From the NCBI GenBank assembly GCA_004193555.1, contig RPGP01000029.1:390976-454975 (forward strand): a stretch of 64,000 bases of DNA, written 5' to 3'. The DNA comes from Desulfobacteraceae bacterium Eth-SRB1 (lineage in GTDB: Bacteria; Desulfobacterota; Desulfobacteria; Desulfobacterales; ETH-SRB1). Positions 27,522 to 49,460 of the stretch are shown piece by piece (positions within the stretch are counted from its first letter, which is position 1; the number at the start of each line of letters is the position of its first letter). The position numbers and the translations under genes are program-made. The notes beneath the pieces are model-generated. The model was given only the letters and a program-made list of their open reading frames with translations, had not been told where the DNA came from and did no database searches.

Positions 27522-29948
27522 CTATTCTCCATATGAGTCTGTGGAAAAAGCATTCAGTTTCTCAACTACCCTGACTGCCTCCACACCGTCTTTGGCATAA
27601 TGAGCGCTAATCGACTTCGCGTAGGCCTTTGTTACCACTGCTCCGCCCACCATGAATTTACAGTCAAGAGACTCCCTCTGTGCAAGTTCTATCACCTCTT
27701 TCATATTTACCATGGTGGTGGTCATCAGGGCCGACAGGCCGATAACGGAGGGCTTGAGCCGGACGGCCTCCCGTATAATTATCTCGGCAGACACATCCTT
27801 ACCCAGGTCAACCACCTCAAACCCGTGATTCCTCAGCATCAGCGCCACTATATTTTTCCCAATATCGTGAACATCCCCTTTTACCGTCGCGATGATGATA
27901 ACTCCCTTCTGTTTTTTCTCCAGCTTGCTATCCCCGAGCCACGGCACAAGAAAGGCAATACCCTTCTTCATCGTTTCAGCGCATGCTATCAACTGTGGAA
28001 GAAAATATTCCCTCCTGTCAAACAGCGCGCCAACTTCCGTGATCGCAGGGATCATGCTTTCGTCAACCATTCTCTGTGCATCCATCCCTGAGTCCATCGC
28101 AACGGAAAGCAGTCGCTCTATGTCCTCCCTGTTCCCTTCAAGAATGGACTGAAACATCTCGTCTTCAGGCGCCTTATGAGAAGGGGCATCTTCCTGTTTC
28201 ACCTTTGTGGACATTTGTGAGAAATGGCTTATATACTTTGAGGCATCCATGTCCCGGCCGGCAAGCACGTCACCCGCCAATTTGGTGTTCACCAACTCCT
28301 CCACCCCGGGATTGGCAATCGCCATAGTCAGGCCCTTCGACACGGCCATGGCAAGAAAAGCCGCGTTCAGCCACTTGCGCTCCGGCATACCGAAAGATAC
28401 ATTGGAAAGGCCGACAATCGTATTGGCCCCGAAGACATCGCTGCTCCATTCAATCGTCTTCAGGGTCTCCGCAGGCGCCTTAAAGTTGGACGACGCAGCC
28501 ATGACAAGACCATCAATGACTATATCAGACTTCGTAAAGCCCAGAGCCGCAGCCTTTTTGAACACATCTTCTATAATCTTCTTTCTCTTCTCCGCCGTTT
28601 CAGGGATATCGCCATCCGCAAGTGGGAGAAGTATGAACATGGCACCATATTTCGCGGCTACAGGAAGAAGCCTAATTAGCTTCTCACTCTCCCCGGAGAT
28701 AGAGTTGATAAGCGCGCGGCCCGGATATAACCGGAGAGCCGCTTCCATCACATCGATATTTGAGGAATCGATAACAAGGGGCAGGTCAAAGGCCACAGAA
28801 AGGTTTCCGATTACGTCCAGCATTGTCTCTTTTTCATCAATGCCAGGCATGCCCATATTGACGTCGAGAAGCGACGCACCAAATTTTTCCTGTTCTTTCG
28901 CCATGGTCCGCACAATGGACATCCTGCCTTCAAGGAGTTCCTGCTGAAGCGCCTTCTTCCCCGTTGGATTGATCCGTTCCCCGACAATTGAAAGAGGTCT
29001 CTCCCCTTCGAAAATAGCTGAAGCCCTCGCAGAGCTTACGGCGCTGATTGAATCTCTCACCGGTAAGACCGGCTTTCTGCCGGCAACGCTCTCCTTCAAC
29101 ATTCTGATATGATCAGGGGTTGTCCCGCAACACCCGCCTATGAGATTGACCCCCTTTGAGACAAAGTCCGCCCCGAATGAGGCGAATGTGTCCGCCCCCA
29201 TACTGAACACGGTCTTGCCATCGACAAGTTCCGGCATGCCCGCGTTCGGTTTTGCCACCAATGGAATTGTGGCCCAGGGCTTCATCGCCTCAATCAGCCC
29301 TGTCATCTCTTCCGGCCCGGTGCAGCAGTTACAGCCAACGGCATTCGCTCCGAGACTCTGCAACGTGATCAGGGCGGTCACGGGATCCGTGCCGTTAAGC
29401 GTTCTGCCATTTTCTTCATACGTCATAGTCACGATGGTAAATTTGTCTGTCAGCTCCTTTACGGCGATAAGGGCCGCCCTGGTCTCCTGGATATCCATCA
29501 TGGTCTCTATGACAAAGAGATCGACTCCACCTTCGAGAAGTCCTTTTACCTGTTCTTTGTAGACATCAATGGCCTCCTCAAAATCCAGATCGCCGAAGGG
29601 CCTGACAAATCGCTCTGTGGAACATATATCACCCGCGAGGAGAACATCCGTTCCCACCGCGCGCCTTGCCAGCAGTGTAAGCTCCCTGTTGATCTCAACC
29701 ACATCGTAAGAACCGTACTGGCTCAGCTTGATGCGGTTCGCCCCGAATGTGGCCGTGTAAACAATATCCGCACCCGCATCTCGATAACCGGCATGCACAT
29801 CGCTGATTATGTCGGGATTCTTTAGACACCAGATCTCCGGGCATACACCCGCAGTCATTCCCCTCTTCTGCAGCTCAGTACCCGTTGCGCCATCCAGTAT
29901 GATTATTTTCTCTCTGATCCTGTTCTTCAGTGGCATCTTCTTTACCAT
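27522..29948 (-). CDS. metH: Methionine synthase, cobalamin-dependent, lacking C-terminal activation domain
   Basis: Hcy-methyltransferase (GGCCGTTPDHI), pterin-binding (ERINPTGKKALQQEL) and B12-binding (KGDVHDIGKNI) domains. Confidence 0.9.
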   Translation of the reverse strand: MVKKMPLKNRIREKIIILDGATGTELQKRGMTAGVCPEIWCLKNPDIISDVHAGYRDAGADIVYTATFGANRIKLSQYGSYDVVEINRELTLLARRAVGTDVLLAGDICSTERFVRPFGDLDFEEAIDVYKEQVKGLLEGGVDLFVIETMMDIQETRAALIAVKELTDKFTIVTMTYEENGRTLNGTDPVTALITLQSLGANAVGCNCCTGPEEMTGLIEAMKPWATIPLVAKPNAGMPELVDGKTVFSMGADTFASFGADFVSKGVNLIGGCCGTTPDHIRMLKESVAGRKPVLPVRDSISAVSSARASAIFEGERPLSIVGERINPTGKKALQQELLEGRMSIVRTMAKEQEKFGASLLDVNMGMPGIDEKETMLDVIGNLSVAFDLPLVIDSSNIDVMEAALRLYPGRALINSISGESEKLIRLLPVAAKYGAMFILLPLADGDIPETAEKRKKIIEDVFKKAAALGFTKSDIVIDGLVMAASSNFKAPAETLKTIEWSSDVFGANTIVGLSNVSFGMPERKWLNAAFLAMAVSKGLTMAIANPGVEELVNTKLAGDVLAGRDMDASKYISHFSQMSTKVKQEDAPSHKAPEDEMFQSILEGNREDIERLLSVAMDSGMDAQRMVDESMIPAITEVGALFDRREYFLPQLIACAETMKKGIAFLVPWLGDSKLEKKQKGVIIIATVKGDVHDIGKNIVALMLRNHGFEVVDLGKDVSAEIIIREAVRLKPSVIGLSALMTTTMVNMKEVIELAQRESLDCKFMVGGAVVTKAYAKSISAHYAKDGVEAVRVVEKLNAFSTDSYGE

Positions 29949-29956
29949 TGACTCCT

Positions 29957-30586
29957 TTACGCGAGAATCCCCACTACTGCTGTAACAGACTTTTCCGGCA
30001 TGAGAATAAAGTTTTCGTTTATCGTAACTCCTATACGATAAAGCTTCAGCATATCATACATCATCTTCTGATTTTCAAGCAGAAAATCACCATACCCGGC
30101 AGAGAAGCGTTTCCTGGTGAGACGGGCGTTCTCCCTGGCAAGCAGGCGATTAAAAAATCCAATAATCCAGTCAAGCGCCGCATCCGTCATTTCACTTGCC
30201 ACCGCATCGATGACCACACCGCGAGTCATGTCGCCACCTTCGGTATCTTCAAGTATGGCGTCCATTACCACGCTTCCAGAGGTTGACCCAATAAAGAGGG
30301 CCTCTTTGCATCCATTCAGTAATCCGGCGAGTCTCACGCTTCTTACATCAGCGCCAGTCTTGAGGACAATCAGCGGCGGATCCACACGTTCCAGTGGAAC
30401 CCGAATACCGGCCCCCTTCAGCGAGACAAGAGAGGCCGCATATTCTATATACTGTCCTACCTCTTCCCTTTTACGCTCGTTAACCTTTGTTACACCCCTC
30501 TTGTACCCGAGACGCCTGTAAATGGCGCCCATAGGCAACGGAATATTTATTGATGGAAAGATCTGTAACAAGGGAACACTTCCCAT
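29957..30586 (-). CDS. MetH activation-domain-like protein (stand-alone)
   Basis: RKRFSAGYGDFLLENQKMMYDMLKLYRIGVTINENFILMPEKSVTAVVGI; directly upstream of metH. Confidence 0.82.
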   Translation of the reverse strand: MGSVPLLQIFPSINIPLPMGAIYRRLGYKRGVTKVNERKREEVGQYIEYAASLVSLKGAGIRVPLERVDPPLIVLKTGADVRSVRLAGLLNGCKEALFIGSTSGSVVMDAILEDTEGGDMTRGVVIDAVASEMTDAALDWIIGFFNRLLARENARLTRKRFSAGYGDFLLENQKMMYDMLKLYRIGVTINENFILMPEKSVTAVVGILA

Positions 30587-33736: not shown

Positions 33737-34270
33737 TTACAAAGTAGTATTATTGAAGCCGGTTATTGAGCCTTCCGCAAGTATAGGCGAGGCATCTATT
33801 TTTTCTGCCGCCATCATGTGGACAACTCGTTTCATGGCGCTTAAAATCATTAATTGTTCCCACTCCTCCAAGTTTGAAAACCGCTTTATAAATGTTTCCT
33901 GCAAAGGAGGCGGGGCTTGCTCAAGAATTTGAAGGCATTTCTCAGAGAGCTGTATTATTATCCGCCGCTTATCTTGATCACTGCGTATTTTTGTTAAAAG
34001 CTCTCTTTTTTCCAGTCGGTTTATAATGTCAGTTGCAGTAGCTTGGCTCAGGCTGATCGATTTGGCCAAAGCTGTAACCGAAATTTGGCCGTGGTTTGAA
34101 ATTTCCTGCAAAACTATCAACTGGGGCCCGGTTATCCCATATTTCCGGTTCAGATCTTTAGAGTGAAGACTTATTGCCCGAATAATCTTTCTCAGAGACA
34201 AGAGCAATTCACTGCATCGCAACTCTGTTGTTATTTTTTCTACCTGTGGTATTGTCTGTTCCTGTTTCAT
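33737..34270 (-). CDS. MarR-family transcriptional regulator
   Basis: GQISVTALAKSISLSQATATDIINRLEKRELLTKIRSDQDKRRIIIQLSEKC wHTH. Confidence 0.9.
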   Translation of the reverse strand: MKQEQTIPQVEKITTELRCSELLLSLRKIIRAISLHSKDLNRKYGITGPQLIVLQEISNHGQISVTALAKSISLSQATATDIINRLEKRELLTKIRSDQDKRRIIIQLSEKCLQILEQAPPPLQETFIKRFSNLEEWEQLMILSAMKRVVHMMAAEKIDASPILAEGSITGFNNTTL

Positions 34271-34818: not shown

Positions 34819-35502
34819 ATGGTTATTAACAATTTTCAAATTGAGGTGGACAATGAAAGACTTTTGCGGTTTTTGGGGTCATCCGGCAATAAGAATGTAT
34901 CGCCTGCTGTTCAGCAAAAAATTGACCGGTTTTCAGATCGTCTGGAAGAGCTGGTAGCGCCGCAAATAAACTTCAATGTAAAGCCTCTCGCCTCGGTAAA
35001 AAAAGGTGGAGTCCTCTTACAGGATCAAACATGGCTGAAAAGTCCGAAGCTTTCCCGAACTTTCCGTACGGCAAAAAAAGTATGTTTTTTTATCGCAACT
35101 ATCGGCTCTGGTTTAGAGCGAACAGTAAGCAAGTGTATGGAAAAGAATCGATACGCAGATGCATACGTTCTCGATACCATGGGGTCTCTTGTTGTGGAAG
35201 ACGTTACCAATCAATTTCATCTTCGCATGGAACGTCATTACCAGGCCAGAAGCCAAGCCGTAACGCTGCGGTTCAGTCCGGGATATTGTGACTGGTCTCT
35301 CCGTGAACAGTCCGCTGTTTTCAATCAGTTCAAAGATTCCAAAAGTCTTGGCGTAACACTCAGCGATTCCTGCCTTATGACACCCCGCAAGTCCGTTTCA
35401 GGCGTTTTCGGGATCGTACCAAAGAACGGCAACCAAACAATTGCCGATTATAATCCTTGCATTAACTGTTCGAAAACCGATTGTATCGCAAGGAGAAAGT
35501 AA
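34819..35502 (+). CDS. MetH activation-domain-like protein (second stand-alone copy)
   Basis: ATIGSGLERTVSKCMEKNRYADAYVLDTMGSLVVEDV and LRFSPGYCDWSLREQSAVFNQF; C-terminal Cys motif CINCSKTDC. Confidence 0.8.
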   Translation: MVINNFQIEVDNERLLRFLGSSGNKNVSPAVQQKIDRFSDRLEELVAPQINFNVKPLASVKKGGVLLQDQTWLKSPKLSRTFRTAKKVCFFIATIGSGLERTVSKCMEKNRYADAYVLDTMGSLVVEDVTNQFHLRMERHYQARSQAVTLRFSPGYCDWSLREQSAVFNQFKDSKSLGVTLSDSCLMTPRKSVSGVFGIVPKNGNQTIADYNPCINCSKTDCIARRK

Positions 35503-35521
35503 TTGCCCTGCCTTTTTTAAA

Positions 35522-35765
35522 TTAGCGCACCTTCGGTGCGAACATAAGTGCCTAAAGTGAGCTAAAGTATATTAAAGTGCCTAAAGTGAGCTAAAGTATA
35601 TTAAAGTGCCTAAAGTTATGGTACGCCTTCGGCGTGCTAATTGATAACACAATACCACAAGAGTCTGTCCCAATTGTATATTAATGACTTAAGAAACCTA
35701 TATCAAATGGCAGAATTCCTTAACTTTAGGCATTTTAGGCACTTTAATATACTTTAGGCACTTTT
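35522..35765. repeat. 'taaagtg' inverted-repeat element, copy B
   Basis: Contains an exact tandem 29-mer cctaaagtgagctaaagtatattaaagtg at 35551-35579 and 35580-35608. Confidence 0.87.
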
Positions 35766-35871
35766 CGGCCAGCAATCCATCTATCTTATCATACCGAATT
35801 TATTAGGCAAAAAATGAAAAATCCTATACTATTAAAATAAATAAAACAACGGAAGACAGGAGATCGAAAGA

Positions 35872-37329
35872 ATGCGTAGAGGACTTTCCGGAGGCTTGTA
35901 CAAGCCTTTGAATAAAGAAGGTATTCAAAAGATTCACAAAACAGTGCTCAAAGTATTTGCCGAAGTCGGCATCCAGGTTAATCATAAACAAGCCTTTGAG
36001 ATGTTCAAAAAGGCTGGCGCAAACGCAGACTCGGACAGTAAAATTGTAAAATTTTCGCCGGACATGGTAATGGAGCTTGTGAAAAAGGCGCCGTCTTCCG
36101 TCAACCTCTGCGGCCGCGAGCCTGACGAGTCCCTGGATTGCGATATCGGAGGAACCAGGGTTTATCTCGGAACCGGCGGCACAGCTCTCAATGTGCAGGA
36201 TCCTGGCAGTAATGATTCACGTCGGTCCGAACTTAAGGACATCATGAACATGGCCAGGGTTGTAAGCAACCTTGAAAACATTCATTTTTACATGCTTAAT
36301 GTTTTTCCTCACGACGTTGATTACGCCAACATAGACGTAAATCGTTTTGGCGCTGCCTTAAATCGCACAAAAAAACACATCATGGGCGGTGTCTATACTG
36401 TGGACGGGGTTCGCAATGTGATCAGGATGGCGGAAATGATTGCAGGATCGCGGGAAAAACTTCGAAAACGGCCATTTATATCAATGGTCGCCTGCGTAAT
36501 CAGTCCTTTTAAGCTGGACGAAGACTATGGAAAACTGGCCATGGAGGTTGCCGGAAACGGCATCCCGCTGGTTGTGCCTGCGGAACCGTTATGCGGCGCT
36601 ACCTCGCCCGTCAGCCTGGCCGGGACACTGGTTGTAGAGTGTGTGGACACGCTTTGCGGCGTCATGCTGGCCCAGTTGACAAACCCGGGCACGCCGGTCA
36701 TTTTTGGCTGTGTTGCATCCTCAACTGATCTTAGAGACATGAAGTATCTATCCGGCGCGGTTGAAATGGGTCTGATAAACGCGGCTGCCTCACAGATGGC
36801 ACAGTTTTACAAACTTCCCATTTATGCCACGGCAGGCATGTCCGATGCCAAGGTAAACGATGCGCAGACAGGTTATGAATCCGCCATTACCAGTCTTCTC
36901 GTGGCGCTGGCCGGCGGCAACTTTATCCACGACGCTGCCGGATTCCTGGAGTTCTGCATGACAGCCTCTTTTGATAAACTTGTGATCGACAATGAGATTA
37001 TCGGTATGGTCATGCGTGCCGTTGAGGGGATTCGTGTAGATGAAAGCACACTGGCTTTTGATGCTATTAAAAAGGTCGGCCCTGGCGGGCATTTTGTTTC
37101 TTCGCGACACACGCGGCGGCACATGCGTGGCGAGCAATACATGCCTCAGTTAAGCAACAGGGAGAACAGGGACACATGGAAGGCCATGGGAGCCAAAGAT
37201 ACCCGGGCCCGAGCTAAGGAGAGAGTTTTGCAGATTTTAAAGCAACCGCCAAAATCTTTGATCAGTGAAGATATTCGACGTCGTATCAAAGAAGAAATCC
37301 CTGGAATTCACGCATTCTTAATGGAATAA
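35872..37329 (+). CDS. MttB-family (trimethylamine/glycine-betaine-type) methyltransferase, non-pyrrolysine, paralog 1
   Basis: Full-length MttB-like protein (VYLGTGGTALNVQDPGSNDSRRSELKDIMNMARVVSNLENIHFY); no in-frame amber. Confidence 0.88.
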   Translation: MRRGLSGGLYKPLNKEGIQKIHKTVLKVFAEVGIQVNHKQAFEMFKKAGANADSDSKIVKFSPDMVMELVKKAPSSVNLCGREPDESLDCDIGGTRVYLGTGGTALNVQDPGSNDSRRSELKDIMNMARVVSNLENIHFYMLNVFPHDVDYANIDVNRFGAALNRTKKHIMGGVYTVDGVRNVIRMAEMIAGSREKLRKRPFISMVACVISPFKLDEDYGKLAMEVAGNGIPLVVPAEPLCGATSPVSLAGTLVVECVDTLCGVMLAQLTNPGTPVIFGCVASSTDLRDMKYLSGAVEMGLINAAASQMAQFYKLPIYATAGMSDAKVNDAQTGYESAITSLLVALAGGNFIHDAAGFLEFCMTASFDKLVIDNEIIGMVMRAVEGIRVDESTLAFDAIKKVGPGGHFVSSRHTRRHMRGEQYMPQLSNRENRDTWKAMGAKDTRARAKERVLQILKQPPKSLISEDIRRRIKEEIPGIHAFLME

Positions 37330-37368
37330 CGTCCAACCGTTAAAAGCGCCTTAGGAGCAAAACAACTT

Positions 37369-38169
37369 ATGATTATTATTGGAGAGCAGATTAATGCAAC
37401 CCGATCCGACATAAAACGGATTGTCGAAAATCACAGGGAAGATAAGCTTATAGAACTGGCCCAAAAACTGGCAAAAGCCGGCGCAACTTATCTTGACGTG
37501 AATATCGGCACTGGCAAAGGAACCAGTGATGACGAAGCTGATGACATGCGATGGGCGGTAAAAACCATAGGCGACAAGATTGACATTCCGCTTTGCCTTG
37601 ACAGCGCGGATGCGGCTGTGATCGAGGCAGGTCTCGAAGCCCGTGAAAGCAAACCGGCCATGATCAATTCAACCAAAGCAGAAAAAAAACATCTGGAACG
37701 TATTGTGCCCCTGGCCAACAGATACAATGCTCAACTGGTGGCCTTGGCCATGGACGAATCCGGCATCCCAAAAACACCTGAAGGACGACTGACGGCATGC
37801 AGAAAAACAGCTGATTGGTGCGCAAAATGCGATGTGCCCATGGAAAATGTGTTTTTTGATCCCCTGGTTTTGCCGGTAAGCGCCGGTCCGATGCAGGGTC
37901 TGCTGACTTTAAACACATTGGTGATGATAAAAAAAGAATTTCCAGAGGCCAGAACCGTTATTGGACTTTCTAATATATCCTTTGGAATGCCTGCACGAGC
38001 CATACTCAATACGGCATTTTTGCAAATGGCCATATATGCCGGACTTGATGCAGCCATTATGGATCCGTTAAACGAAACCCTGATGCAGGCGATTCGAACA
38101 GGCGAGGCGCTTGTCGGAAAAGACAGGCATTTCCGCAAATACAGCCGGAAATTTCGCAGGAAAAATTAA
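37369..38169 (+). CDS. Pterin-binding methyltetrahydrofolate:corrinoid methyltransferase (MtgA-like)
   Basis: MIIIGEQINATRSDIKRIVENHREDKLIELAQKLAKAGATYLDVNIG and VIGLSNISFGMPARAILNTAFLQMAI. Confidence 0.88.
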   Translation: MIIIGEQINATRSDIKRIVENHREDKLIELAQKLAKAGATYLDVNIGTGKGTSDDEADDMRWAVKTIGDKIDIPLCLDSADAAVIEAGLEARESKPAMINSTKAEKKHLERIVPLANRYNAQLVALAMDESGIPKTPEGRLTACRKTADWCAKCDVPMENVFFDPLVLPVSAGPMQGLLTLNTLVMIKKEFPEARTVIGLSNISFGMPARAILNTAFLQMAIYAGLDAAIMDPLNETLMQAIRTGEALVGKDRHFRKYSRKFRRKN

Positions 38170-38187
38170 ATTAAAAAGGAGAAAAAT

Positions 38188-39732
38188 GTGAGTGAGCTGT
38201 TTCGTGAAGGAACCATTGTTAAACCCTATGAACGTCTGAGTCAGGAGCAGATACTACGGTTGCACAAGGCATCGCTGAGTATTTTGAATGACCCTGGTAT
38301 CTGGTGCTACAACGAACGGGCTGCCAAGCTGTTTGGCGACCACGGCGCAAAAGTATGGGAAGAAATCGAACAGGGCAAGACGCTTTGGCGGGTACAATTA
38401 CCTGCCGGCCTGGTGGAAGAAGCGGTTGAAAAAGCGCCGTCACGCTTTTTTTTAGGCGCCAGAAATCCTAAAAACCGGCTTTTGCTGGATTCTCAAATTC
38501 CGCGTATTTATTTTGGCACCGGTTCAGAAACCAATACCTGGATCGAAACAGCAATGGAACAATTTGTCAGCACAGGCAGGCAGGATGTTGTCATCCAGGC
38601 TCCCCGCTTCACTGAGCTGCGGGGTAACACGGAACTGTTGGGTCGCGCTGCGCAACTCTGCGAAAATCTTGAAAATCTCGATTTTTTTATCCGTCCTGTC
38701 AATATTCAGGACCCGGATGTAACCGAAGATAATCACGACGTCAACAAGTTCTTTACGAGTTTAAACAACATTACTAAGCATGTACAGGCCGGGCTAACCC
38801 GGCTGGACAGGCTCGACGATGTGGTGCGTATGGCGAAAATCATCGCAGGCGGCAAAAAAGCTCTGCGGAAAAATCCCATCATTTCCTTTATTGCCTGTGT
38901 GTTTAAAAGTCCGCTGCAATTCGTGAAGGATACTGCCGATAAGGTTTTTGCCATAGTAGAAGCCGGTCTTCCTCTGGTTATTTCTTCCTCTCCCCAGGGT
39001 GGTTCCTCCGCTCCGGTCCAGGAGGCGGGCATGGTAGCCCAGATTAATGCGGAAATTTTGGCAGGTATTACTTTTACCCAGCTTATCCGGGAAGGAGCGC
39101 CGGTTTTATACGGCAGTGTGCCTGTAAGGGCACGTATGGATGATCTGCACGATTTTTACGGATGTCCCGAGTTTAATCAGTATAATATTGACTGCGCCCA
39201 AATGGCCCGTTTTTACAAGGTGCCATGCTATAGCACAGCCGGGGTTGGCGATGCCAAAGTTCCCGGCATGCAGGCGCTGTTTGAAAAACTGTTTACACAC
39301 CTTTACGTAGCCATGAGCGGCGCTCAGTACATTCACTATGCTTTTGGATTGCTGGACCGGACAAATTCGTTTTGCCCTGTCCAGGCTGTGCTTGATGACG
39401 AACAGATTGGCAAGATCAAACATTGCCTGCGTATGCCCAAAGTGAGCCAAACAGATGTGGATGACGCGGGTAAGATGATCGCCAGGGTCATGGCTTCAAG
39501 CCACCGTCTGTTTGCCAGACACGCGCGCAAGGCTATCCATGCCGGAGATGTCTCTAAGCCATATCGGTTCGAGTCCAGAGGCATGTCAGACCGTGTCATC
39601 GAACAGGCTGTGAATAGACTTGCCGAAATCGAATCGCGGCCTGCGCCTCATCTATCGGTAGATGTTCTTGACAAGGTGTATGATGAAATTCCCGGTCTGC
39701 TGCCCCGTTTACGACATGAGCAGAGCATTTAA
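38188..39732 (+). CDS. MttB-family methyltransferase, non-pyrrolysine, paralog 2
   Basis: MttB-like architecture (IYFGTGSETNTWI ... SQTDVDDAGKMIARVMASSHRLFARHARKAI); no in-frame amber. Confidence 0.87.
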   Translation: MSELFREGTIVKPYERLSQEQILRLHKASLSILNDPGIWCYNERAAKLFGDHGAKVWEEIEQGKTLWRVQLPAGLVEEAVEKAPSRFFLGARNPKNRLLLDSQIPRIYFGTGSETNTWIETAMEQFVSTGRQDVVIQAPRFTELRGNTELLGRAAQLCENLENLDFFIRPVNIQDPDVTEDNHDVNKFFTSLNNITKHVQAGLTRLDRLDDVVRMAKIIAGGKKALRKNPIISFIACVFKSPLQFVKDTADKVFAIVEAGLPLVISSSPQGGSSAPVQEAGMVAQINAEILAGITFTQLIREGAPVLYGSVPVRARMDDLHDFYGCPEFNQYNIDCAQMARFYKVPCYSTAGVGDAKVPGMQALFEKLFTHLYVAMSGAQYIHYAFGLLDRTNSFCPVQAVLDDEQIGKIKHCLRMPKVSQTDVDDAGKMIARVMASSHRLFARHARKAIHAGDVSKPYRFESRGMSDRVIEQAVNRLAEIESRPAPHLSVDVLDKVYDEIPGLLPRLRHEQSI

Positions 39733-39767
39733 AAAATGTTGAATCAAAATAAAAGGAGAAATCGGAC

Positions 39768-40451
39768 GTGAATGAACAGGAGTTAATTGAAAAAATAGCA
39801 TATAATGTAATTCAGGGCCGCGTTGTAGCAGAAGACGAAGGGTTTGATGAAGGCCTCGAAGGAGAACCCGCAGTGACAGAATTGATGGAACAGGCGGTTG
39901 AGCAAAATATTGACGCAAAAAAACTGGTGGTGGAATGTCTCACCGGTTCCATGGAAGATGTGGGAGAAAAGTACGATAAAGGCATATACCTTATTCCTGA
40001 CATGCTCGCATCCGCCGAATGTGTTGGCGCGGCAATGGATATTTTAGGTCCCCGTCTGGCCAAAGCAGGCATAGAAACCAAAGGCAGGTTTATCCTCGCT
40101 ACTGTTGCAGGAGACCTGCACGACATCGGCAAAAACATTGTCGGTATCATGCTTAAAGGAGCCGGTTTTGAGGTGATCGATCTGGGCAATGATGTGCCGG
40201 CTGATCGTATCGTGGAAGAAACCAGGAAAAACAACGCACAGTTTGTGGGCCTTTCCGCGCTTCTGACAACCACCATGCGCGAGATGGAAAAAGTGGTAAA
40301 GTCGCTTCAAAATGTAGGTATTCGCGACAAGGTGCGTGTGCTCATCGGCGGGGCGCCGACATCTGATAAATTTGCCGAGCAGATCGGCGCTGATGCTTAC
40401 TGCAGGGATGCTTTTCATGCGGTTGATGTATTACGAAAAATGAATATATAA
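39768..40451 (+). CDS. Corrinoid (B12-binding) protein
   Basis: DLHDIGKNIVGIMLKGAGFEVIDLGNDVPADRIV with DxHxxG motif. Confidence 0.92.
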   Translation: MNEQELIEKIAYNVIQGRVVAEDEGFDEGLEGEPAVTELMEQAVEQNIDAKKLVVECLTGSMEDVGEKYDKGIYLIPDMLASAECVGAAMDILGPRLAKAGIETKGRFILATVAGDLHDIGKNIVGIMLKGAGFEVIDLGNDVPADRIVEETRKNNAQFVGLSALLTTTMREMEKVVKSLQNVGIRDKVRVLIGGAPTSDKFAEQIGADAYCRDAFHAVDVLRKMNI

Positions 40452-41722
40452 TGGAGAGAATAATGGCGGAAGAGACAGCTTATACACAAGCGGCGACCTC
40501 TGGAAAATACGACAAGACCTCAGGTCTTCTGAGAAAGTATGACAATGTTCGCCGGTTCTGGGAAGACCAGTTGACCAGTACGTTTTTACGCCCCGCGTTA
40601 AACAAGCTGGTTCAACGAAAATCCAAACTTTTGAAACGTATCCGCGTCCTGGACATGGGCTGCGGCAGCGGAGACGGCTACGATCTTATCATGGGCGTCA
40701 ATACAAAAAATCCGGGCATATACGATTACACAACAGCGGCGATTATTCCTGACATGCTGAATGCCTATGTGGGTGTGGATATCAACGAAGATCTGTTGCG
40801 CCAGGCAAACGAATGCTACGGGAACAATCCCAAGTTCAGTTTTTTGCGCGAGGATCTTTCAAACGGTTTTACCAGCAAAATAAATGCCCAGGACCCTTTT
40901 GATCTCTATTTTACGTCCTACGGCACGCTGTCACATTTTCACGACCAGCAATGCGTCAGGCTTATCGCTGATATCTGCCGGCACAGTTCGGACCAGGCAA
41001 TCTTCGTGGGAGACTGGCTGGGTCGTTATTCCTACGAATGGCAAGATCTTTGGGACAACCCTGTTGATGAAGAATATTTCATGAATTACCGCATATCCTA
41101 TATTTACCCCGAGGCAAAACAGGATCATGTTGATATCGCTTCCTTTCCGCTGCGGCTGCTTACAAAAAATGAAATCATGAAAATTATCAAGCAGGCGGCA
41201 AAGGAGTCAGGCGTTCAAATTAAACCTGTTACCCTTTTTGACCGGTCAATATTTATCGGCAGACATATGGATACAGGTGACTACAATGTCAACTGCCCCA
41301 GGTTGAGATTTCCGGTTAATTCGCTTTTTGAAGGATATGTACGCACCGATCTTGAAAGCCTTCTGGTGGATTACATTCCCAAGTCCGGATTTGATCATCT
41401 GAACAATTTTTTTGAAATGCTCTTTATGTCCTGGAATACCCTGGTGAATCATACTATATCCCTGCTTGGCAACTATGACGTAGAAAAATGCGCTTTTGGC
41501 GCTATCCCTGAAATTCTTCCCTTTTATCCGGAACCGCTCAAGGAGGCCATGGAAACCATGCAAAGAGTTGTTGAGGGGGTCGGCTGGGTGCCGTGGGGAG
41601 ATGTCAGGGCCAATGTAATTGAGCCGCATCTTGGTTATTCCCTTCGCAAGCTTGAAATTGATCTTCAGCCGGGAACCGGTGTCGGACACGGGCTGGTCGG
41701 AGTTTTTGAGATTCGCAAATAG
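40451..41722 (+). CDS. Class I SAM-dependent methyltransferase
   Basis: IRVLDMGCGSGDGYDLI motif I; start overlaps the end of the corrinoid protein gene. Confidence 0.8.
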   Translation: MERIMAEETAYTQAATSGKYDKTSGLLRKYDNVRRFWEDQLTSTFLRPALNKLVQRKSKLLKRIRVLDMGCGSGDGYDLIMGVNTKNPGIYDYTTAAIIPDMLNAYVGVDINEDLLRQANECYGNNPKFSFLREDLSNGFTSKINAQDPFDLYFTSYGTLSHFHDQQCVRLIADICRHSSDQAIFVGDWLGRYSYEWQDLWDNPVDEEYFMNYRISYIYPEAKQDHVDIASFPLRLLTKNEIMKIIKQAAKESGVQIKPVTLFDRSIFIGRHMDTGDYNVNCPRLRFPVNSLFEGYVRTDLESLLVDYIPKSGFDHLNNFFEMLFMSWNTLVNHTISLLGNYDVEKCAFGAIPEILPFYPEPLKEAMETMQRVVEGVGWVPWGDVRANVIEPHLGYSLRKLEIDLQPGTGVGHGLVGVFEIRK

Positions 41723-41787
41723 GCGCCTAGCCTGGATGTGTCACACAAACATAAGCGGGAACATATATCGGGAAAAAGGAAATTTTA

Positions 41788-43326
41788 ATGAGTGGCTTTG
41801 CGGTAACTTTTAATAACAACGACTGTTCGGAACTGGAAGATATGATCAAACGGATCGATTATCGCGGTCCGCATATCTTCGGGAAGTTTGAATACAGCCG
41901 TATCATGATGGCCCAGAAATACCTTCGCGCTGATATTGCTTTGGAAAAAGAAAATATGTCGGAAACATGGAATTACATGGTTCCGGCCTTTGACCAGGAT
42001 TTTCCGGAGTTGAGGATATGCTACGACGGCCAGATGGGAAACTGGGAAAAGTATGCCAAAGCCTGCGGCGTTCCAAACGGCACGTTTAGAGAAGATCGCC
42101 TTTTTTTACGCCTGTATAGAGAACACGGGATAAAGATGTTCGATTGTCTGGACGACGCTATTTTTGCATTCGTGATTTCTGACGGCAAAAAGTTCTTTGC
42201 TGCGAGGGACCTGCTGGGAATCAAAACGCTTTTTTACGGAAAAAAAGATAACATACTTTATCTTGGTTCCGAACTTAAAAGTATCATTGGATTCACCGAT
42301 GAAGTTTATGAGTTTCCTCCCGGGCACTACATGGATCAGACAGGACGAATCACCTGTTTTGCAAAATTGCCCGACGCGTCGCCTGTGCCTGTGCGTACGA
42401 ATATTGACGAAATAACCACAGCGATCAGAGACATTATTAATCGAAGTTTCCGCAACCGTATCGATTTCAGCGTAGAAACAGGGAGTCTTCTTTCAGGCGG
42501 AATCGACAGCAGCGTCGTTACGGCCATTGCCGGCAGGGCATACCGCAAAAAATTCGGTAAAAATGCTCGTATTAAAACCTTTGCTCTTGGTGTGGGAGAA
42601 AGCGAAGACATAAAATGTGCCAGAGTAATGGCCGATTTCATTGGTTCGGACCATCATGAACTGATCGTTGATCTTGAACAGATGATGGATGTCCTGCCTG
42701 AAGTGATTTATTATCTTGAGTCGTTTGATCCTTCGCTGGTCAGAAGCTCTGTGCCAAATTATCTTATTTCCAGGTATGCAGGAAAAAAAGACATCGAGGT
42801 TCTGCTATCCGGTGAAGGCGGCGATGAAATCTTTTGCGGATACCGGTATTTTAAAAATTTTTCTGCGCAAGAGCTCTTTGCACGCCAGATGGAATGTATC
42901 GGCTTTCTGCACAACAACGCTTCTCTACGGCTGGACAGGATGAACCTGTGCAATTCCATTCGTGTGATTACTCCGCTTATATCCGGTGAACTGCTGAATT
43001 ATTCTATGTCTATTCCGCCTGAGTATAAACTAAGGCCTGATGGAAAACAGAAGATCGAAAAGTGGATTTTCAGAAAGGCATTTGAAGATGTTTTGCCAAA
43101 AGAAATCGTTTGGCGGCTGAAACAGGAGTTTTCACAGGGGTCTGGGGCGGCGGATGTGCTTTCCACTCTCTTTGAAGAACTCATCACGGATGACGAGTTC
43201 AGCGCTGCCCAAGAAAAACATCCTGTTGTGCGAAGCAAGGAGGAGCTTTTCTATTTCAGAATCTTTGCCGAAAATTTCGGGACAGGGAAGGCAGTCGAAA
43301 CTGTCGGACAGTGGATTGCCCTGTAG
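41788..43326 (+). CDS. Asparagine-synthetase-like protein lacking the N-terminal catalytic Cys
   Basis: GSLLSGGIDSSVVTAIAGRA PP-loop, LLSGEGGDEIFCGYRYF; N-terminus MSGFAVTF instead of MCGI. Confidence 0.87.
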   Translation: MSGFAVTFNNNDCSELEDMIKRIDYRGPHIFGKFEYSRIMMAQKYLRADIALEKENMSETWNYMVPAFDQDFPELRICYDGQMGNWEKYAKACGVPNGTFREDRLFLRLYREHGIKMFDCLDDAIFAFVISDGKKFFAARDLLGIKTLFYGKKDNILYLGSELKSIIGFTDEVYEFPPGHYMDQTGRITCFAKLPDASPVPVRTNIDEITTAIRDIINRSFRNRIDFSVETGSLLSGGIDSSVVTAIAGRAYRKKFGKNARIKTFALGVGESEDIKCARVMADFIGSDHHELIVDLEQMMDVLPEVIYYLESFDPSLVRSSVPNYLISRYAGKKDIEVLLSGEGGDEIFCGYRYFKNFSAQELFARQMECIGFLHNNASLRLDRMNLCNSIRVITPLISGELLNYSMSIPPEYKLRPDGKQKIEKWIFRKAFEDVLPKEIVWRLKQEFSQGSGAADVLSTLFEELITDDEFSAAQEKHPVVRSKEELFYFRIFAENFGTGKAVETVGQWIAL

Positions 43327-43366: not shown

Positions 43367-43528
43367 GTGATACTTGCCATAGGCGAAATACTTTACGATA
43401 TATTTCCTGAATACAAACGCTTAGGCGGCGCGCCTTTCGATTTTGCCTTTCATTTAAAAAATCTTGGGATGCCGGTTTGCTTTGTTTCAAGAATCGGCAA
43501 TGACCTTGAGGGGAATTACAATATGTAA
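43367..43528 (+). pseudogene. PfkB-family carbohydrate kinase N-terminal fragment
   Basis: GTG-start VILAIGEILYDIFPEYKRLGGAPFDFAFHLKNLGMPVCFVSRIGNDLEGNYNM*. Confidence 0.75.
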
Positions 43529-43689
43529 GAGTTATATACTATTTTCGGATTTTTCCCCGCCGCAATAGCACCTTCGTTCAACAAGTCGCCGGAGGCGGAC
43601 ACTAAAAACAACGGCGATAAATCAACTCAACCTTCGTAGTAGCTTTTGGCGCAAGTCAGCTAAATCGAACCATAGGAAAAGGAGTAAAA

Positions 43690-44994
43690 ATGATTTTTAC
43701 AGAAAACCAACAAGATATTGCAGAAAAGATTGATTCGGATGTTTCCAAATCAACTTGGAAGGAGTGGAAATGGCAGACAAGTCATCGTATAAAAACAATA
43801 GATGCTTTGGAGAAAGTTCTTGATGTAAATTTACATAAAGAGAAGAAAGTAGAATTACAAAAAACAATTGAAAAATTCCCGATGTCTATTACGCCGTATT
43901 ATTTATCCCTTATTGATACGGATAATTTAGAAAATGATCCTATTTTTAGACAATCTGTTCCATTTATTCACGAACTATATTCTTCACGTTCGGATATGGT
44001 AGACCCATTACATGAGGACAAAGACAGTCCTGTGCCAGGAATTACGCATAGGTATCCTGATCGTGTTTTGTTTTTGGTAAGTAATGTGTGTGCAATGTAT
44101 TGTCGTCACTGCACCAGAAAAAGGCGGGTGGGGGATATAGACAATATCCCAACTAAAAAAGAGATACAAGTTGGAATTGAGTATATTCGCAACACCCCCA
44201 AAGTTCGAGACGTTTTGTTGAGTGGAGGAGATCCATTTTTGCTATCAACTGATTATTTGGATTGGATATTAACAGAACTTCAAAAGATAGAGCATGTTGA
44301 AATAATTCGTATTGGAACTAGGACACCTGTTGTTTTGCCTTACCGAATAACTGATGAACTTGTGGCAATGTTGAGAAAACATCATCCCTTATGGATTAAT
44401 ACGCATTTTAATCACCCTCGGGAAATAACTTCATCTTCCAGAGAAGCTATTGCTAAACTTGCGGATGCTGGGATTCCTCTTGGCAATCAATCGGTTCTGC
44501 TTTCTGGCGTAAACGATTGTCCAAGAATCATGCGATCTCTTGTCCACAAACTCGTTGCAAACAGGATTAGACCTTACTATTTGTATCAGTGTGATCTTTC
44601 TGAAGGATTAGCTCATTTCAGAACCCCTGTTGGCAAAGGAATTGAAATTATAGAAAGCTTGATTGGACATACAACCGGATTTTGTGTGCCAACCTATGTG
44701 ATTGATGCGCCTGGAGGCGGTGGCAAGATCCCTGTTATGCCAAATTACCTTATTTCATGGTCTACCAATAAAGTAGTTTTGAGAAATTATGAAGGAGTCA
44801 TAACAACCTATAAAGAACCTGATTCTTATGAACCAACTTTTTGTGATAGAAACTGCGATCAATGTAACTTGTTACTTCCCTTGGAAGATGCACCTGAATA
44901 TCGGGCAGTTGGAATCGAAAAACTGTTAGCAGATTACGATGATACTATAGCACTTGTTCCTGCAGAAAATGAACGAATAGAAAGGCGTGACTGA
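43690..44994 (+). CDS. ablA: Lysine 2,3-aminomutase (radical SAM)
   Basis: [17 protein letters not shown] radical SAM motif; [15 protein letters not shown]; followed by an AblB-like gene. Confidence 0.92.
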
Positions 44995-45839
44995 TGTTGA
45001 CTCAAGATAAAATCGAAAGTTATAAGGGGAGTATTATTCAACATGGGCACTATAACGACCGTATTTACCTGATGAAAACAACATCATTTCCGTCAGCAGG
45101 GCTACCTTATGAACTTATTGAATTGGCTAAAACAAATGGATACTCAAAGATCTTTGCAAAAGTTCCAAAGAATGTTGCAAAGTTCTCTTTTTTCAATGCC
45201 GGTTTTTTAGAAGAAGCCAGAATCACGGCTTTTTTTTCAGGAAAGCAAGCCGCTGTATTTATTGGGTATTATTTAAACGCCGAACGTACCAAGGAACCCG
45301 ATATTGAAAAAATGGAAAATATTTTAAAGATTGCTTTTGGAAAAAGATCAACAGATAAAGTACAGCCTTTGGCGGATCGGTTTGTTTTACGCAAGTGTAA
45401 TAAAACAGATGTAGCTGTTATGGCAAAAATATACCAAGAGATTTTCCTTTCCTATCCATTTCCGATCCACGATCCTGACTATCTTTTAAAAACCATGCAA
45501 AGTCATATTGATTATTTTGGTATTGAAACAGAGGGCGGATTGGTAGCTGTTTCATCGGCGGAAGTAGACAAAGAAGCCGCTAATGTGGAAATGACAGATT
45601 TTGCAACACTACCAGAATGGCGAGGAAATAATTTTGGCCAACAGCTTCTTGCTCGAATGGAGAATGAAATGAAGAAGAAAAATATCAAAACTGCATATAC
45701 AATTGCTCGAGCAATGTCGCCTGGAATGAATGTTACGTTTAGCAAAGCAGGATACCAATTTGGCGGTAGGTTAAAAAATAATACAAATATTTCTGGAAGA
45801 ATAGAGAGTATGAATGTTTGGTATAAGTCACTCCATTAG
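44994..45839 (+). CDS. ablB: Beta-lysine N6-acetyltransferase (GNAT)
   Basis: Follows ablA with overlapping start/stop; C-terminal GNAT fold LPEWRGNNFGQQLLARMENEMKKKNIKTAYTIARA. Confidence 0.88.
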   Translation: MLTQDKIESYKGSIIQHGHYNDRIYLMKTTSFPSAGLPYELIELAKTNGYSKIFAKVPKNVAKFSFFNAGFLEEARITAFFSGKQAAVFIGYYLNAERTKEPDIEKMENILKIAFGKRSTDKVQPLADRFVLRKCNKTDVAVMAKIYQEIFLSYPFPIHDPDYLLKTMQSHIDYFGIETEGGLVAVSSAEVDKEAANVEMTDFATLPEWRGNNFGQQLLARMENEMKKKNIKTAYTIARAMSPGMNVTFSKAGYQFGGRLKNNTNISGRIESMNVWYKSLH

Positions 45840-48205: not shown

Positions 48206-49357
48206 TCAAATAAATCTCTTCATCAGCTCATCAATTGTCTCATCCACATTTTCCTGCGTAACTCCAAGCTCATTGCAAATCTTTTCAACCTTTGCCATCC
48301 TGCGGGGACTATCCATATCGCCAAGGCTGTGGAAAATTCCAAGCCTTCTGCCAACCTGATACAGACATTGGCTTTTCGGGTTCATTGAAAGAAAATTTCG
48401 TATTACTGTCAGCATATGCTCCTTGTCATCCGGCAAAACTCCTTCTACTTCCTCAAAAAGATTCAGGATATGATCACTCTTGATAATGCTTGTAATCCCT
48501 TCCAGCCTTTCCATAAGCATCAGAATCTCTTTTGCCGTCATAAGGTCTGTGCATTTTTCAAATCGACCGGAAGCATAATCCTGATAAAGGGGAATATTAT
48601 TCGGAATAGCAAGGGTTCTCATCCGTATGAAATCAGGATTTATCCGGTTTAAAGCATCTGCGGTTTCCAGCGCATGGATATTTGAATATTTTCTTCCTCC
48701 AAGACCCGGCATTATATATTCTGAAAGCTCCATTCCCGCTTTTTTTACCTTGAGCCCTGCTTTGATATGAATTTCCTTTGTAACGCCTTTTCTGACCATT
48801 TTTAGAACATGATCGGAGCCGGATTCAAGGCCGATATGGATCCTGTTTAGGCCGGCATCTCTTATCGCTTTTAAATCCTGGTCTTTTTTCCGCGCAATAG
48901 TGTGCGATCTTGCATAAGATGTTATCCTTTCAACCCAGTAAAAACGCTTTTTCAGGTGTGTAAGTATTTCCACCAGATCATAAGGTTTTATAATCAGGCT
49001 GTTTGCATCCTGTATAAAAATTGAATTCATGCCGCCTTTAAACCAGTTAAAAGCCGCACTTAATGCCTGCATATCAACAGGATTAATACTTTCGGCTATT
49101 TTACCGGCTTCGACATGGCTTACCCTCCCCGATTCGTCAGCCATCTGTCGCAAAATATCAACATATCCCCAAACAGCATCAATATCCCTTTTAATATGTT
49201 CTACCTTGCGCATAGAAAAACTGGCTGCCTTGTATACAGGGCAAAAAGCGCAGCGATTCCAGGGACAGTTCCTTGTAACACGTATCAAAAGGCTGTACGC
49301 TTCGCTTGGAGGCCGTATGGGCCCCTGCTCAAAACCATTATATTCAGACGATATACT
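48206..49357 (-). CDS. Radical SAM protein
   Basis: RVTRNCPWNRCAFCPVYKAASFSMR cluster motif; start placed at MSISSEYNG because the longer ORF runs into a dispersed repeat. Confidence 0.82.
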   Translation of the reverse strand, partial: SISSEYNGFEQGPIRPPSEAYSLLIRVTRNCPWNRCAFCPVYKAASFSMRKVEHIKRDIDAVWGYVDILRQMADESGRVSHVEAGKIAESINPVDMQALSAAFNWFKGGMNSIFIQDANSLIIKPYDLVEILTHLKKRFYWVERITSYARSHTIARKKDQDLKAIRDAGLNRIHIGLESGSDHVLKMVRKGVTKEIHIKAGLKVKKAGMELSEYIMPGLGGRKYSNIHALETADALNRINPDFIRMRTLAIPNNIPLYQDYASGRFEKCTDLMTAKEILMLMERLEGITSIIKSDHILNLFEEVEGVLPDDKEHMLTVIRNFLSMNPKSQCLYQVGRRLGIFHSLGDMDSPRRMAKVEKICNELGVTQENVDETIDELMKRFI

Positions 49358-49377
49358 CATTAGAAGAACAAAATAAA

Positions 49378-49460
49378 AGATGAACGTCCAACATCGAACG
49401 TTGAACATCGAACGTCGAATAATGATGTCGCTCCGCTATTTAAATTATTTTAAAATCAAA
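49378..49460. repeat. 'gaacgtccaacatcgaac' repeat copy
   Basis: Matches the 4800-4880 region including 'gaataatgatgtcgctccgct'. Confidence 0.8.

Follow-up and report, generated by a model that had tools for sequence, protein, structure and literature searches.

A conserved operon of corrinoid and SAM methyltransferases that may make a betaine-type osmolyte

The window analyzed here is a stretch of 64,000 nucleotides from Desulfobacteraceae bacterium Eth-SRB1 (assembly GCA_004193555.1, contig RPGP01000029.1, forward-strand positions 390,976 to 454,975), and our subject is an operon at 35872–43326 of this window that joins corrinoid methyltransferases to an S-adenosylmethionine (SAM)-dependent methyltransferase and an AsnB-like synthetase. 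The operon is conserved far beyond chance: in a block of eight genes in all, it recurs with little change among anaerobes of salty habitats from several phyla. Because these methyltransferases and the AsnB-like enzyme adjoin osmoprotectant transporters in relatives, we suggest that a betaine-type salt protectant is made here or, less likely, consumed. Our leading but tentative reading is thus of an osmoadaptation operon through which anaerobes that have the Wood-Ljungdahl pathway make a compatible solute of the betaine type, glycine betaine being the simplest case. Its direction, substrate, and product, and the role of the AsnB-like enzyme, are what we infer from gene content, gene order, co-occurrence, neighbors, and residue losses.

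The initial annotation had described six closely packed genes on one strand, with overlaps or short gaps, and Pfam and NCBIfam profile searches confirmed every family, the coordinates proving exact. All six open reading frames (ORFs) lie on the forward strand: MttB1, a non-pyrrolysine MttB homolog (35872–37329; PF06253, E 9e-109); an MtgA-like methyl-tetrahydrofolate (methyl-THF):corrinoid methyltransferase (37369–38169; NF005719), which belongs to the MtgA/PRK07535 family (286.7 bits, curated cut-off 259); MttB2, a divergent MttB homolog (38188–39732; PF06253, E 4e-60); an MtgC/MtbC-like corrinoid protein, CoP (39768–40451); a class I SAM methyltransferase, SAM-MT (40451–41722; PF13649 over cut-off), with an alternative start at an in-frame ATG at 40463; and the AsnB-like synthetase (41788–43326; PF00733, E 4e-63). 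The gaps between them are 39, 18, 35, −1, and 65 nt, CoP and SAM-MT overlapping by 1 nt. CoP matches the general B12-binding domains PF02310 and PF02607 and falls below the curated MtgC models (NF047996, 190 against 370 bits, E 3e-56; NF047995, 171 against 310). The six genes hold as a unit, but the annotation of its extent left out a stand-alone gene resembling the MetH activation domain, MetHact (34819–35502, forward strand; PF02965, E 7e-8), which heads the unit in 29 related loci.

We searched genome contigs with a SAM-MT profile and mapped the ORFs around each match. This recovered 56 loci in Desulfobacterota from seeps, soda lakes, and marine settings, and in Nitrospirota, Syntrophomonadaceae, Peptococcaceae, Actinomycetota, and Phycisphaerae, together with one distant Armatimonadetes locus; viral contigs had no relative. 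The order MetHact-MttB1-MtgA-MttB2-CoP-SAM-MT-AsnB is almost invariant in Desulfobacterota and is retained in Nitrospirota except for the orientation of AsnB, and Firmicutes and Actinomycetota retain MttB2-CoP-SAM-MT. Among 395 Desulfobacterota genomes, SAM-MT occurs in 12, and an MttB2 ortholog (54–100% identity) occurs in exactly the same 12, the next MttB2 matches reaching at most 38% identity. Under independent scattering such co-occurrence would have a chance of about 1e-22, a figure that is weaker given phylogeny, yet the carriers represent 10 genera. Pairwise divergence, given here without a housekeeping-gene control, correlates with that of SAM-MT at 0.94 for MttB1, 0.92 for MttB2, 0.87 for CoP, and 0.86 for both MtgA and MetHact, and less so for AsnB (r 0.62). 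Because SAM-MT and MttB2 co-occur and gene order is kept, the annotated corrinoid methyltransferase operon, extended by a SAM methyltransferase and an AsnB-like gene, came through a survey in which a lack of co-conservation could have told against it. It has to be amended in one respect, since the two extra genes do not form one module: MttB2, CoP, and SAM-MT are the core of the operon, SAM-MT being found also in Firmicutes and Actinomycetota, and AsnB is an accessory confined to Desulfobacterota and Nitrospirota.

Of the 56 loci, 19 have an osmoprotectant ATP-binding cassette transporter of the OsmF/ProV/ProW families (OsmF-type binding protein, ProV, and permeases) next to or within the cluster, and these 19 span Desulfobacterota, Nitrospirota, Syntrophomonadaceae, and Phycisphaerae. 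An adjoining transporter is often divergent from a MarR gene; in L049 and in Syntrophomonadaceae it sits within the cluster. Two loci from other genomes, L081 and L082, likewise have it at the operon. In Desulfobulbales the operon is extended directly downstream by genes for MetK, AhcY, and a bifunctional homocysteine methyltransferase/MetF, implying stoichiometric use of SAM. Together, the transporters and SAM-cycle genes of these different lineages indicate an osmolyte and stoichiometric SAM consumption, and they uphold the link to compatible solutes that had been drawn from the window.

In the mechanism that we propose, MtgA would pass the methyl group of methyl-THF to the corrinoid protein, and MetHact would reactivate the corrinoid at the expense of SAM. 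MttB1 and MttB2, whose pockets are each invariant but unlike one another, would then carry the methyl group from methyl-corrinoid to an amine acceptor, opposite to the known MttB direction. SAM-MT would catalyze one step or more, including the energetically unfavorable final one, from tertiary to quaternary amine. Import or recapture of the solute would fall to the neighboring OsmF/ProU transporters, and the AsnB-like ligase might extend it as an amide. Methyl transfer from methyl-THF should be downhill to primary and secondary amines and uphill to a tertiary amine. Given two MttBs, a methyl-THF:corrinoid transferase, and one SAM-MT, the most economical reading would be conversion of glycine to sarcosine and dimethylglycine by methyl-corrinoid and of dimethylglycine to betaine by SAM. 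This particular route, an inexpensive, corrinoid-dependent anabolic N-methylation in which both MttBs methylate and the novel SAM-MT serves only the last, endergonic step, is one that we put forward with considerable doubt. Synthesis in general is favored because SAM-MT belongs to the invariant core and methylation by SAM is effectively irreversible toward the methylated product.

The hosts fit such a role. The operon is carried by a genome (G249) that appears to be that of Desulfurivibrio alkaliphilus AHT2, a haloalkaliphile for which the genome paper reports a transporter but neither ectoine nor betaine synthesis genes (PMC5016858). Ectoine synthase scored over its cut-off in 0 of 15 carriers. 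Acetyl-CoA synthase was found in 14 of the 15, which implies a supply of methyl-THF.

Several points weigh against synthesis. To our knowledge, all characterized non-pyrrolysine MttBs demethylate quaternary amines, and we know of none that acts as an N-methylase. The OsmF/ProU transporters are equally compatible with uptake for catabolism. In relatives, gene neighborhoods tie the operon to osmoprotectant transport and to the activated methyl cycle, but in the window its surroundings contain no transporter and no SAM-cycle genes, and the osmolyte reading for this genome therefore rests on orthology. SAM-MT has no particular likeness to known glycine or dimethylglycine methyltransferases, Foldseek matching its methyltransferase domain with no informative substrate class. 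Finally, the energetic argument draws on general background.

These points lead to the main rival, catabolic demethylation, which we consider a doubtful but serious alternative. An imported quaternary amine would be demethylated stepwise by MttB1 and MttB2 onto CoP, MtgA would hand the methyl groups on to THF, from which they would enter the Wood-Ljungdahl pathway or methionine, and SAM-MT would play a minor part, for example by methylating the product again when the cell requires an osmolyte. The characterized enzymes MtgB, MtpB, MtcB, MtyB, and MthB all act in this direction (PMC8604678, PMC12155760), transporters lie within clusters, and MtgA and MetHact resemble components of demethylation systems (PMC12478193). 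The operon shares with the glycine betaine:THF methyltransferase MtgABC of Desulfitobacterium hafniense, and with MtgBCDE of marine bacteria (PMC12478193), an MttB-family protein, a corrinoid protein, and a methyl-THF:corrinoid methyltransferase, as modules of a split methionine synthase. It differs from MtgABC in having two dissimilar MttBs, an obligate SAM-MT, an AsnB-like ligase, and a stand-alone MetHact, and its direction is probably reversed. Demethylation leaves unexplained both the invariant SAM-MT and the MetK, AhcY, and homocysteine methyltransferase genes in the operon, and ORF mapping found no MtgA beside the Syntrophomonadaceae or Actinomycetota clusters.

The substrate pockets also argue against demethylation of betaine. 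Both MttBs belong to the MttB superfamily (PF06253, 364 bits for MttB1 and 204 for MttB2, cut-off 25) and are TIM-barrel homologs of 2qne and 9yce among PDB matches. In MtgB, docking, in place of a ligand-bound structure, predicts that Y94, N199, R309, and H345 bind glycine betaine (PMC6855144). None of the four is kept in any of 39 MttB1 or 48 MttB2 sequences, which lends no support to the glycine-betaine demethylase pair implied by the initial annotation and which we count in favor of synthesis. At these sites MttB1 has G, C (35 of 39), Y, and D/E, where T/S, A/T, Y, and Y stand in MttB2; the change from C to A at the second of them depends on the alignment. Each protein has its own near-invariant residues. 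Neither is a pyrrolysine MttB: in alignments the pyrrolysine site holds an ATG (MttB1) or a Val codon (MttB2), there is no in-frame TAG, and both fall below the cut-off of the pyrrolysine trimethylamine methyltransferase model TIGR02369. The Rfam element PYLIS_3 nevertheless matches MttB1 at 36838–36937 (62.9 bits, cut-off 38), starting at that ATG despite the missing TAG, and does so likewise without TAG in 7 of 7 relatives scanned; what it detects is mttB coding sequence, not pyrrolysine insertion. Such matches inside mttB were the only ones in or near the operon in an Rfam scan, which found no riboswitch there.

SAM-MT is a protein of 423 amino acids with only general domain matches in Pfam and NCBIfam. 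Its AlphaFold2 model (mean confidence, pLDDT, 87) has a standard class I domain, and Foldseek matched its C-terminal half to no solved structure; searching PDB sequences with its profile brought up only generic methyltransferases. With the GSMT/SDMT systems of Methanohalophilus, Ectothiorhodospira, and others it would share SAM-dependent N-methylation to a betaine osmolyte. It differs from them in its length and its unmatched C-terminal half, and GSMT (5h02) appears only at rank 32 in Foldseek. As far as we know, those systems contain no corrinoid components.

SAM-MT might instead serve CoP itself, priming or repairing Co(I) as has been guessed for CpaM, in which case the operon would be an ordinary demethylase; we regard this as quite improbable and, with the amide solute discussed below, as a weaker rival than catabolism. 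Its gene follows that of CoP in every locus with upstream sequence except L058 and L067. CpaM (NF043040) is likewise a class I SAM methyltransferase that accompanies corrinoid proteins, and two distant SAM-MT members match it weakly. These matches are far below the cut-off (24.5 bits for the best family member against 180) and generic for class I methyltransferases; the window protein has no match, and the CpaM model spans 216 positions against 423 amino acids, so that identification as CpaM was rejected. Moreover, MetHact, to which we ascribe SAM-dependent reactivation of the CoP corrinoid, already provides this function in 29 loci, and priming gives no reason for MetK and AhcY to be in the operon.

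The AsnB-like protein is below both curated AsnB cut-offs (PRK09431 and TIGR01536). It retains the two-domain architecture of asparagine synthetase B, the SGGIDSS and SGEGGDE motifs (tested as SGGxDSS and SGEGxDE), and the C-terminal EKWIFRKAFE..RxKxEFSQG. In contrast, all 33 members of the subtype that were compared (the window protein and 32 relatives) have lost Cys1, the glutaminase nucleophile, to Ser, Ala, or Gly, so that they start with MSG, MAG, or MGG, and have RVVxPLIS in place of ExRxPFLD. Since both are gone, this is not a normal asparagine synthetase; from these motifs, it probably uses ammonia or another amine, not glutamine, on an altered acid substrate. The window genome has further AsnB-family genes elsewhere, including a full-length homolog; one scores over the TIGR01536 cut-off.

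The AsnB-like enzyme raises a different reading, in which it makes asparagine or an aspartate-derived amide that SAM-MT and the MttBs then methylate. AsnB is retained in 42 loci, and in other lineages a genuine, Cys1-bearing AsnB takes the position of the Cys1-less paralog in the operon; at L050 and L053 the two genes form a tandem. Still, clusters of Firmicutes, Actinomycetota, and Phycisphaerae, and that of L049, have the core without AsnB, and AsnB tracks the divergence of SAM-MT less closely than the other genes do. A methylated amide or amino-acid solute, which the initial annotation had proposed, is thus a possible product but an unlikely one, for which the AsnB gene is the sole argument.

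Methionine synthesis as the sole purpose of the operon was also rejected. MtgA, CoP, and MetHact correspond to MetH modules, but a homocysteine module accompanies the operon in Desulfobulbales alone, and a separate MetH is encoded in the window (27522–29948, reverse strand; 808 amino acids, covering TIGR02082 positions 2–857) with homocysteine, folate, and B12 modules and no activation domain. Beside it, a 209-amino-acid ORF (29957–30586, reverse strand) resembles a separate activation domain by eye and has no family match. A homocysteine-binding MetH module was not found (E ≤ 1e-10) in carriers G007, G012, G015, G037, G166, G168, G243, G266, and G424, in a search that did not extend to MesB-type core-MetE. 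Next to the operon in L017, L019, L023, L035, L040, L054, and L056 is a second corrinoid cluster, whole or as a contig-limited part, with an MtgA-like protein and a corrinoid protein and, in the fuller ones, two further MttB paralogs (31–39% identity), sometimes on the opposite strand.

Upstream of the unit lies a MarR-family regulator (33737–34270; PF01047, E 2e-16), on the opposite strand in the window; in about 15 relatives a MarR-like gene is immediately upstream, mostly on the same strand. MetHact and MttB1 are separated by a repeat-rich spacer of 369 nt (35503–35871), with 29-nt direct repeats in tandem and 24–27-nt inverted repeats. Because the spacer is only about 60 nt in the closest relatives (L012 and L013), it is probably an insertion specific to the window genome, and it may separate MetHact from the remaining operon genes. 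Promoter and terminator scans gave matches only at the chance level of shuffled sequence and are uninformative. Downstream, starting 363 nt after the AsnB-like gene, are genes (43690–45839) for lysine 2,3-aminomutase and AblB, which exceed their cut-offs with 784.6 and 344.6 bits, respectively, and serve synthesis of N-epsilon-acetyl-beta-lysine. We rejected this pair as part of the operon, as just 3 of the 15 carriers score over cut-off for it and the other two of these do not have it next to the operon. A 53-codon frame at 43367–43531 resembles, on visual inspection, the truncated N-terminus of a sugar kinase and has no Pfam match, and a radical SAM protein weakly similar to PhpK P-methyltransferases is encoded at 48206–49408 on the reverse strand.

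The initial annotation had not recognized the pathway as a described one, and we too found no published account in the open-access literature, most subscription papers lying outside this scope; the same holds for the gene combination, the tight co-occurrence of MttB2 and SAM-MT, and the Cys1-less AsnB subtype. The component families are known, their combination is apparently undescribed, and there is a real chance that the anabolic pathway is new. To the question of how low-energy anaerobes such as methane- and ethane-seep sulfate reducers and soda-lake sulfur disproportionators can afford organic osmolytes, the operon brings a specific candidate, and one from a cultured genus. If the corrinoid-dependent route is correct, it would be the missing osmolyte route of Desulfurivibrio and of seep sulfate reducers. 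If MttB-type enzymes do methylate amines from methyl-THF, anabolism would be added to the roles of a large superfamily associated only with demethylation, and mttB counts taken from metagenomes to indicate betaine-derived methane or methylotrophy would be mistaken in part.

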